Shown piece after piece: positions 5,940 to 42,830 of a DNA stretch of 43,065 nt. Numbering within the stretch: the stretch's first letter is position 1; each line of letters starts with the position of its first letter. The position numbers and the translations under genes are program-made. The notes beneath the pieces were generated by a model that saw only the letters and a program-made list of their open reading frames with translations, was not told the origin of the DNA and searched no databases. Source of the stretch: Anaerolineae bacterium (lineage in GTDB: Bacteria; Chloroflexota; Anaerolineae; UBA4142; SHND01); NCBI GenBank assembly GCA_021463195.1, contig JAJTXZ010000038.1:1-43065 (forward strand), written 5' to 3'.

Positions 5940-6932
5940 CTAATTGCCCGTTTGCGAGAGACCGGTGCCGGCGCCGCTCGGCGGTTCGGATTCGGAAGGC
6001 GGCAGTTGGACAGTGCCGCTGGAATTGGCGACCTGAACCATACTCGCGTCCATTGGCTCTTCGCTGCTCGCTTGCTGAATAAATTCGGTCAAGCCTTGCA
6101 CGAGATTGGTGAATTCCATCGGGAAAATATATTTGGTCGAAGGACTCGCGCCGAGCTGTTTCAACGTGTCCATGTATTGCAAAGACAACGTTTTGGAATC
6201 AATGTTGCGCGCGACATTGAAAATGGTTTGGAGCGCGAGCGAGTACCCTTCCGCTTGCAAGATGCGCGCTTGGCGTTCGCCTTCACTGCGGAGAATGACC
6301 GCTTGCTTGTCGCCGTCCGCAACCGTGATGGCGGCTTGGCGTTTGCCGTCCGCTTCGGTGACCACCGCGCGGCGCGTGCGTTCGGCGGACATTTGCCGCG
6401 TCATCGCTTCTTGAATATCGCGCGGCGGGATAATTTCACGAATTTCGACCGCCGTCACTTTGACGCCCCAGCGTTCGGTGACTTCATCCAATTTGGTGCG
6501 CAGCACCGTATTGATATGTTCGCGTTGCGCTAGCACATCATCCAAAATAATATCGCCAATCACGGCGCGCAGCGTTGTCGTCGCAATGCCTTGCGACGCG
6601 CCCGCGAAATTGCCGACTTGGACGACGGACGAAACGGCGTCCACCACTTTGGAATAAATCAAAAAATCAACGCTGATGGTGACATTATCTTTGGTGATAC
6701 ACGTTTGATGCGGAATTTCTTGAAATTGTTCGCGCAAATCCACTTTGACCGGTTGGTCCGCAATCGGAAAAAGAAAAACAATGCCCGGCCCTTTGCTGCC
6801 AATCGCTTTGCCGAGCCGAAAGACCACTAACCGCTCGTACTCGCGCACCACGCGAATCGCGCTCAAAACGAGCACGAGCAATACAATTAAAATGAAAACG
6901 AGACAAATTAGACTTACAAGGGCGCTTTGCAT
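5940..6932 (-). CDS. SPFH/band-7 (stomatin/QmcA-like) membrane protein
   Basis: A 330-residue protein with one N-terminal transmembrane helix (about residues 5-27) followed by the SPFH/PHB domain (VVREYERLVVFRLGKAIGSKGPG, then VDLREQFQEIP and TKDNVTISVDFLIYSKV). A long charged, Ala-rich helical region (MSAERTRRAVVTEADGKRQAAI) follows, typical of stomatin/QmcA oligomers. Family members form membrane microdomain scaffolds and often act with NfeD proteins or FtsH-type proteases; no NfeD gene is adjacent here. The ATG at 6932 has AAGGAG 6 nt upstream. The C-terminal tail is Pro/Ser/Gly-rich and probably disordered. It appears monocistronic between its own promoter region and terminator. Confidence 0.92.
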   Translation of the reverse strand: MQSALVSLICLVFILIVLLVLVLSAIRVVREYERLVVFRLGKAIGSKGPGIVFLFPIADQPVKVDLREQFQEIPHQTCITKDNVTISVDFLIYSKVVDAVSSVVQVGNFAGASQGIATTTLRAVIGDIILDDVLAQREHINTVLRTKLDEVTERWGVKVTAVEIREIIPPRDIQEAMTRQMSAERTRRAVVTEADGKRQAAITVADGDKQAVILRSEGERQARILQAEGYSLALQTIFNVARNIDSKTLSLQYMDTLKQLGASPSTKYIFPMEFTNLVQGLTEFIQQASSEEPMDASMVQVANSSGTVQLPPSESEPPSGAGTGLSQTGN

Positions 6933-6982
6933 GGACGACTCCTTTTTCGATTTGAATGGTTTGCTCCAAATCGCGCGCCGTC

Positions 6983-6988
6983 ATTATA
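6983..6988 (-). promoter_or_regulatory. Putative SPFH-gene -10 element
   Basis: On the minus strand a perfect TATAAT lies 51 bp before the SPFH ATG. The -35 position at 17-bp spacing now falls inside the end of the inserted 94-bp element (TCACCA), a poor hexamer, so the insertion may have changed this promoter. Confidence 0.45.
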
Positions 6989-6997
6989 ACACAAGGG

Positions 6998-7105
6998 TTG
7001 ACCCCTGGTGATTACACGAATTTTCAGACCCCAAGAGTTTTCGAAAACCCTTGGGGTCTGAAAGTCTGCTACGTTTTCGAGATGCCAGTAATCACCAGTT
7101 GACCC
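6998..7105. mobile_element. 94-bp MITE-like element, copy 1, with 7-bp target duplication
   Basis: The element spans 7005-7098. It begins CTGGTGATTAC and ends GTAATCACCAG, a perfect 11-bp terminal inverted repeat that extends imperfectly to about 20 bp. It is flanked by the direct repeat TTGACCC (6998-7004 and 7099-7105), the expected target-site duplication. An internal hairpin of 17-bp arms (CAGACCCCAAG... and ...CTTGGGGTCTG, one mismatch) fills the left half. A second copy of identical length lies at 42729-42822. There is no coding capacity, so it would be mobilised in trans. Confidence 0.85.
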
Positions 7106-7127
7106 GCACGCGCGGCAATGTTAGAAT
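7099..7127 (+). promoter_or_regulatory. Promoter of the M20 peptidase gene
   Basis: TTGACC (7099-7104), a 17-bp spacer and TAGAAT (7122-7127) form a good sigma-70 type promoter 38 bp upstream of the ATG. The -35 hexamer lies within the right-hand target duplication of the MITE, so the insertion preserved it exactly. Confidence 0.65.
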
Positions 7128-7165
7128 CTCGCGCGTGCGCGTTAAATCTATCACAAGGAATTAGC

Positions 7166-8539
7166 ATGTCTCAATCGGCTTTGGCAATCGCTTGGGCGCG
7201 TCAACAGCGCGAGCGCTATGCGCGCGAATTGCAAGCGCTGGTCGCCATCCCTTCAATCTCAACTTTGTCCGAAAATCAACCTGATATACAGCGCGCGGCG
7301 GAATGGTTGGCGGCGCAGCTGCGCGCGCTCGCTTTGGACCGCGTATCCATTTTGCCCACCGGCGGACATCCGGTCGTGTACGCTGAAACGCTGCGCGCGC
7401 CCGGCAAACCGACGATACTGGTGTACGGGCATTACGATGTCCAGCCGGTTGATCCGCTAAACGAATGGCTCACCCCCCCCTTTGAGCCGACCGTGCGCGG
7501 CGAAAATTTGTACGCGCGCGGCGCGTGCGATATGAAAGGCAATTTGCACGCGGCGCTCAAAGCCATCGAAGCGCTTCAGCAACATGGCGGCTTGCCGCTC
7601 AATCTAAAAATTCTCATTGAAGGCGAAGAAGAAATCGGTTCGACGCATCTTGACGCGTTCATCGCGCAACATGCCGACATGCTCGCCTGCGATTTATGCC
7701 TCAACGCGGATTCCGGGATTTCCGGGCCCGCGCTGCCTTCGCTAGTGACTGGCTTGCGCGGTTTGGCTTATTTTGAATTGTGGGTCTATGGCCCCGCGCA
7801 AGATTTGCATTCCGGTTTATTTGGCGGCTCGATTCACAATCCCGCGCAAGCGCTGTGCGATTTAATCGCGGGGATGCACGACGCAAACGGACGCGTAACT
7901 TTGCCTGGTTTTTATGAGCGTGTGCGCGAACTGTCGCCGCAAGACCGCGCCGATTTCGCGGCGGACCCTGTCAGCGATGAACAATGGAAAGCGTTGGCGG
8001 GCGTCAACGCATTGTGGGGCGAAGTTGGTTTTACCGCCAATGAGCGCACGGGCGCGCGTCCGACGTTGGAAATCAATGGAATGTTGGCGGGCTTTACGGG
8101 CGAAGGTTCCAAAACTGTGCTGCCCGCCAAGGCGATGGCGAAAATTTCCATGCGGCTTGTGCCATATCAAGATTCCACGCGTGTCGAACAACAGCTCAAA
8201 GCTTATTGCGCGCAGCACGCGCCGTCCACCGTGCGCTGGGAAATTAAAACTATTACGCGCAGCGCGCCCGGTATTTTGTTAGAGCGCGACAGCGTTGGCG
8301 CGCGCGCCGCGCGCGCGGCGCTGCGTGACACCTTTGGCGTCGAACCTATTTTCGTCGCGGAAGGCGGCAGCGTGCCAGTCGTTTCGATCCTCAAGGAAAA
8401 ACTGGGCATTGATTCAGTCTTGCTTGGGTTTGGTTTGCCGGACAGTCATATTCATGGCCCAAATGAAAAATTGCATTTGCCCACCTATTATCGCGGCATC
8501 GAAACGTATATTCGATTTTTTGAAAATATGGCGGCGTGA
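7166..8539 (+). CDS. M20 family metallopeptidase (dipeptidase-like)
   Basis: A 457-residue di-zinc hydrolase of the M20/ArgE/DapE/CPG2 superfamily, of the dipeptidase type with a two-domain architecture. Catalytic and zinc-binding motifs are visible: GHYDVQP (His89), RGACDMKGN (bridging Asp122), EGEEEIGS (general base/ligand Glu near 152-154), LNADSG, and a C-terminal His in DSHIHGPNE. A lid/dimerisation domain lies between about residues 190 and 350. The start is the ATG at 7166 (MSQSALAIAW) with AAGGAA 5 nt upstream; longer frames from 7118 lack an RBS and run over the promoter. No signal peptide, so it is cytosolic, probably for peptide or amide turnover. A run of eight C (7473-7480) lies in the coding region. 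Confidence 0.93.
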   Translation: MSQSALAIAWARQQRERYARELQALVAIPSISTLSENQPDIQRAAEWLAAQLRALALDRVSILPTGGHPVVYAETLRAPGKPTILVYGHYDVQPVDPLNEWLTPPFEPTVRGENLYARGACDMKGNLHAALKAIEALQQHGGLPLNLKILIEGEEEIGSTHLDAFIAQHADMLACDLCLNADSGISGPALPSLVTGLRGLAYFELWVYGPAQDLHSGLFGGSIHNPAQALCDLIAGMHDANGRVTLPGFYERVRELSPQDRADFAADPVSDEQWKALAGVNALWGEVGFTANERTGARPTLEINGMLAGFTGEGSKTVLPAKAMAKISMRLVPYQDSTRVEQQLKAYCAQHAPSTVRWEIKTITRSAPGILLERDSVGARAARAALRDTFGVEPIFVAEGGSVPVVSILKEKLGIDSVLLGFGLPDSHIHGPNEKLHLPTYYRGIETYIRFFENMAA

Positions 8540-42682: not shown

Positions 42683-42720
42683 TGAGTTTAGGATAAAAGA
42701 TTTTTAGGCGTTGTCAAGGG

Positions 42721-42830
42721 ATATTTGTCTGGTGATTACGCGGATTTCCAGACCCCAAGGGTTTTCAAAAACCCTTGGGGTCTGAAAGTCTGCTACGTTT
42801 TCGAGATACGAGTAATCACCAGATATTTGT
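42721..42830. mobile_element. 94-bp MITE-like element, copy 2, with 8-bp target duplication
   Basis: The element spans 42729-42822, the same 94-bp length as copy 1. It has the same 11-bp terminal inverted repeat CTGGTGATTAC/GTAATCACCAG, an internal perfect 17-bp-arm hairpin (42748-42782), and about nine base differences from copy 1 by eye. It is flanked by ATATTTGT at 42721-42728 and 42823-42830, an 8-bp target duplication. It lies between the divergent dehydrogenase and menG/ubiE-like genes. Confidence 0.9.

Follow-up and report, generated by a model that had tools for sequence, protein, structure and literature searches.

The yeast elements Ty3 and Ty1 dock on the transcription machinery and thereby integrate at a defined position in front of genes. 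Both are eukaryotic LTR retroelements that use RNA polymerase III factors and they have no relationship to the family studied here, although the way of working that we propose for it is alike. To our knowledge, a bacterial transposon that inserts at a fixed distance from the −35 and −10 hexamers, to a precision of 2–3 bp, has not been described, and a literature search limited to open-licence papers found no promoter-phased bacterial transposon. Like bacterial MITEs in general (e.g., MITEAba12, PMC6382973), the MITEs of this family are short, contain no gene, carry terminal inverted repeats (TIRs) and a target duplication, and are present in many copies. The difference is that their insertion is phased to the −35 and −10 hexamers with base-pair precision. 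The IS4 superfamily, which includes IS50, IS10, and ISPepr1 (PMC2266710), resembles the autonomous members of this family in the 5′-CT ends, the mostly single ORF and the length of 1.35–1.49 kb, and also in the direct repeats, which in this family are of 7–9 bp and hence near 10 bp rather than 4–6 bp. The word "promoter" is absent from that review and, as a consequence, no promoter phasing is described there.

The window, that is, the whole stretch of 43,065 nucleotides that was analysed, comes from an Anaerolineae bacterium, hereafter the host. It contains a 94-bp element bounded by perfect 11-bp inverted ends (Table 1), which fulfils the features of a MITE, as it is short and non-coding and has TIRs and a target duplication. 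The TIR was found at four exact places of the window, forming two pairs (7005/7088 and 42729/42812), vs. an expected count of 0.16 with one mismatch allowed. The initial annotation had described the 94-bp MITE with its 11-bp TIRs, its hairpin and a 7-bp TTGACCC duplication at 6998–7105, and the sequence is exactly as it claimed. The fold energy of the element is −44.9 kcal/mol, compared with −21.7 kcal/mol for shuffled sequences (z −7.2). No match was obtained in an Rfam search with the element, and a terminator scan of the region 6850–7250 identified none, indicating that this hairpin is no ordinary intrinsic terminator.

Table 1. Coordinates of the features identified around the two MITE copies of the window.
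Feature	Position	Strand	Evidence or remark
SPFH/Band 7 protein gene	5940..6932	-	PF01145, E 4.9e-33
Predicted extended -10 TGtTATAAT of the divergent SPFH gene	6983..6991	-	Conserved in relatives; sequence only, no transcript data
Left copy of 7-bp target duplication TTGACCC	6998..7004		Overlaps the spacer that precedes the SPFH -10; present once in each of five empty sites
94-bp MITE	7005..7098	+	Host genome has 53 or more copies
Left terminal inverted repeat CTGGTGATTAC	7005..7015	+	Common to autonomous elements
Internal palindrome/hairpin, 16-bp plus 4-bp stem	7020..7065		Fold
Right terminal inverted repeat GTAATCACCAG	7088..7098	-	Read from sequence
Right copy of target duplication TTGACCC	7099..7105		Read from sequence
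-35 TTGACC of the predicted M20 peptidase promoter	7099..7104	+	Conserved in 5 relatives
Extended -10 TGtTAGAAT of the predicted M20 promoter	7119..7127	+	TGnTANAAT in 5/5 empty sites
M20 peptidase gene	7166..8539	+	PF01546 and PF07687
Promoter-like site at standard phase beside the 42729 copy	42690..42717	-	TTGACA (42717-42712), 16-bp spacer, TATCCT (42695-42690)
Second MITE copy	42729..42822	+	Copy search; target duplication ATATTTGT read at 42721-42728 and 42823-42830

The right-hand copy of the duplication had been proposed to provide the −35 of a 17-bp-spaced promoter of the M20 peptidase gene, with TAGAAT as the −10. This assignment was borne out, as TTGACC-17-TAGAAT, with its extended TG, gives 10 of 12 matches, is the only such promoter site on the + strand of 6850–7250 and is conserved in five relatives. 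The relatives were obtained by searching the M20 protein in 20 related genomes for an empty-site comparison; in five of them, belonging to the same genus as the host, the M20 and SPFH genes are also divergent neighbours. All five empty sites have one TTGACCC followed by 16 bases and then by TANAAT, with TGn preceding, which is the opposite of the result that would have refuted the initial annotation. Since the empty sites already have this single-copy promoter, the M20 −35 is older than the insertion, and the right-hand duplicate rebuilt this predicted −35 together with its 17-bp spacer.

The same comparison bears on the SPFH side. In four of the five relatives a minus-strand TGnTATAAT of the SPFH gene lies about 8–10 bp to the left of TTGACCC, while the fifth (G004) has extra bases between both motifs. 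This position implies that the ancestral promoters overlapped, with the M20 −35 inside the SPFH spacer. By duplicating its target, the insertion supplied each of the two overlapping predicted promoters with its own copy of the common segment, and therefore neither the SPFH nor the M20 core was lost. As far as these predictions go, the insertion parted the two promoters by 101 bp while both cores were kept; its effect on expression is unknown. The initial annotation was thus right in that the SPFH and M20 promoters were separated without destroying that of M20, and the SPFH core can now be added to what persisted. It had also regarded the left-hand TTGACC as an orphan, which holds only in part, because this copy lies in the SPFH spacer in the empty sites and still does so here. 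The locus offers a clear instance in which a target duplication pulls overlapping divergent promoters apart and leaves both in place.

Further copies with matching ends, whose absence would have counted against the initial annotation, were found by the dozen in the host genome. The pattern TIR-N72-TIR with up to three mismatches is present at 45 places, vs. none for the reversed control pattern, and 53 distinct copies were collected when length variants were included, 47 of them being of 94 bp. As search results, these counts are minimum values. Among the exact target duplications, most are of 7 bp (12 copies) or 8 bp (14 copies). Neither internal sequence nor orientation is constant among the copies, as expected of a family that is old and has been mobilised many times. 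In host contig C112 (L043, 2228–2257) two element ends, separated by 8 bp, point away from each other, which would fit the insertion of one copy directly next to another.

When one mismatch was allowed, a search for the terminal 16 bases was positive for 91 of 396 genomes of the class, frequently at high copy number. Other genera and families harbour MITEs of 93–145 bp whose ends are the same while their internal palindromes show no relationship, and a strong internal hairpin is present in nearly all folded MITEs of this TIR family. In several loci (L201, L203, L209, L220, L226, L229, and others) the palindromes are unrelated while the total length is nearly constant (93–95 bp), which suggests that size is constrained and that local palindromic repeats were captured more than once. 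The hairpin core around CCCTAAGGGTTTTCGAAAACCCTTAGGG was also observed without MITE ends, as a stand-alone palindromic repeat, in 42 of 298 genomes of the class (L066–L094).

The initial annotation did not recognise the element as a named family and had suggested looking for an autonomous transposase with the same TIRs. Such a transposase exists in the class, and the family could be traced through the common TIRs to an IS4-superfamily element of Chloroflexota. At one locus (G239) both ends lie 1.48 kb apart and flank a broken IS4-type transposase; the use of this protein as query led to an intact transposase in genome G106, and to others. Neither the search with the G239 protein nor a profile search found the transposase in the host assembly. 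Ten transposase loci emerged when named genomes were scanned; nearly all belong to Chloroflexota MAGs, and one is labelled Rubrobacter. Eight of them are readable at both ends, and all eight have CTGGTGATTACCCA-type repeats as their limits and measure 1.35–1.49 kb, which connects the ends of the MITE with the transposase. An element of 2.16 kb that has these TIRs too (L095 889–3049, G281:C3) was not used as parent. It has a 559-aa ORF beside a transposase fragment; this ORF, without Pfam or NCBIfam match, is possibly cargo. The ends of host contigs C11 and C126, where 48 bp of the MITE continue into coding DNA, were rejected as parent, because this DNA is found in non-MITE places too and has its own ends (AGCGCATTTGAATATT) and a CTNAG target. 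It is consequently a separate IS inserted into MITE hairpins. Copies of this IS, with an apparent CTNAG target, are inserted in CTTAG or CTAAG of the hairpins and also elsewhere, and were seen at contig ends C11:1–132, C126:19084–19215, C88:1–99, and C91:1–99 (L035, L045, L105, and L106).

With respect to the classification of the transposase, six out of six proteins match the NCBIfam IS4 model NF033590, with a best value of 8e-9. The match is weak, and the intact G106 protein attains 22.5 of 160 bits, far under the curated cut-off. No Pfam match was obtained with the transposase, a profile search of the PDB returned nothing, and an AlphaFold2 model was set aside owing to its pLDDT of 42. The Y(2)R(3)E(6)K motif of the IS4 family is absent, W(2)R(3)E(6)Q being found in its stead in 6/6 proteins around E338, a block from which the position of the catalytic E was inferred. 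As to the ends, the IS50 subgroup has the consensus CW------Y---CA-A--W- (PMC2266710, Table 1), and the TIR CTGGTGATTACCCACA(A/T)nT matches this IS50 (Tn5) sequence at each of its seven fixed positions. In contrast, the ISPepr1 consensus YT-AA-YTT---A is not met, as positions 4, 5, 7, and 13 disagree. Direct repeats outside the host are equally of 7 and 8 bp (18 cases each), with one of 9 bp, compared with 8–9 bp in the IS50 subgroup. Given the IS50-like ends, but also the weak match to the IS4 model and the replacement of Y-R-E-K by W-R-E-Q, this transposase, which has no Pfam or PDB relative, is placed in a group of its own within the IS4 superfamily and not as an IS50 member.

The initial annotation had the target duplication carrying a −35 hexamer. 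This is true of the 7005 copy and is not the rule of the family, in which most copies lie 10–12 bp upstream of the −35. The recurrent picture is a duplication of 7–9 bp, two to four bases, TTGAC and then TATAAT 16–18 bp further on. TTGAC at offsets 10–12 from the element edge was found in 22 of 104 host flanks (0.79 expected, P 2e-24) and in 41 of 161 flanks of other genomes (0.69 expected, P 4e-57), the latter having been chosen by terminal repeat or transposase only, and −10-like hexamers peak at offsets 33–34. Promoters at this standard phase accompany 34 of the 53 host copies, while 0–4 were counted at each of twelve positions shifted by 12 to 78 bp and six inward-facing sites vs. those 34 outward-facing ones. 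The copy at 42729 is on phase, with its TTGACA on the minus strand. The remaining 19 copies, that at 7005 included, have no promoter at the standard phase by the criteria used; the edge of the 7005 copy is directly on the M20 −35, 10–12 bp (about one helical turn) closer than usual, and its orientation is the preferred one. Promoter-side flanks are all different, no two being alike, so duplication of a single locus does not explain the phasing. The presence of an open reading frame beyond these flanks, in the downstream direction, was assessed with a crude test that gave no significance (P 0.30). All promoters were predicted and not mapped, and the genomes are draft MAGs.

TTGAC is the most visible feature of the flanks and the duplicated 8 bp are 58–73% A/T, so that the transposase might simply read a DNA motif, TTGAC after A/T-rich DNA, and strike promoters as carriers of it. 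We give this explanation little credence. When TTGAC was present at offsets 9–13, a −10 followed after a 16–18-bp spacer in 14 of 25 host flanks and 24 of 43 others (38/68, 56%), whereas only 13 of 791 control TTGAC (1.6%) elsewhere in the host loci had a −10 at the right spacing. In addition, flanks lacking an exact TTGAC kept the −10 peak at 32–35 (8 vs. 1.07 expected in the host and 20 vs. 0.98 in other genomes), and the motif would need a reach of about 35 bp with both hexamers read. Another possibility is that of random intergenic insertion followed by selection purging the copies that break genes or core promoters. The core promoters beside on-phase copies are intact, as purifying selection would also leave them, but that process predicts a broad spread of distances, whereas the peak of TTGAC distances spans only 3 bp and counts are at background level from about 13 bp outwards; we find this explanation scarcely credible. 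A narrow peak and the need for both hexamers make docking on the polymerase a simpler explanation than either selection or motif reading.

The MITE could also be kept because it tunes host promoters, by replacing the distal UP region or through an insulating hairpin, the phase then reflecting positive selection. The phase itself would fit this, as would the strong hairpin of nearly all folded MITEs of the family and the bias of the arms, since of 32 informative copies 24 have the arm with CGTTTTCGAGATG on the promoter side (24:8, P 0.007). We nevertheless hold it to be very improbable, given that internal sequences are unrelated between lineages and that autonomous IS ends in several genomes are at the same phase. 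Two autonomous elements with an unbroken transposase (L271 and L274) are among them, which indicates that the phasing belongs to the transposition machinery and not to one MITE. The autonomous copy L274 (CAMDEX010000161.1) is flanked on either side by a promoter-like site that faces outwards and lies at the standard phase.

We consider it likely that the MITE was moved in trans by the transposase of a Chloroflexota IS of about 1.4 kb and that insertions of the family are phased to promoters, most likely under guidance of the polymerase. Mobilisation would depend on the transposase of this IS4-superfamily element, and mobility in the host is inferred, as none was found in its assembly. The statistics show that insertions are phased to predicted sigma70-type promoters, the −35 starting some 10–12 bp outside the element edge. 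If the spacer is of 17 bp, an edge 10–11 bp ahead of the −35 would correspond to about −46 and the duplicated 8 bp to about −45 to −38. The duplicated target is accordingly put at about −46 to −38, which we take to be the proximal UP element of the promoter. The transposase complex would thus recognise promoters, most likely as DNA occupied by the RNA polymerase holoenzyme, and insertion would presumably be placed where the alpha C-terminal domain binds, leaving genes and core promoters intact. The 7005 copy entered about one helical turn closer, duplicating the TTGACCC common to the overlapping divergent SPFH and M20 promoters. We lean towards the view that the family targets promoter-bound holoenzyme by docking and inserts in the proximal UP element as a safe site. 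The polymerase as landmark is the simplest reading of the sequence data, but it remains an inference, and direct reading of promoter DNA is possible.

If the family does dock on the polymerase, it would be a bacterial counterpart of Ty3. Confirmation would reveal a bacterial mobile element that chooses a harmless site via the transcription machinery, would offer a route toward a promoter-directed insertion tool, and would make the elements natural markers for those sigma70 promoters that are active in uncultured Chloroflexota.
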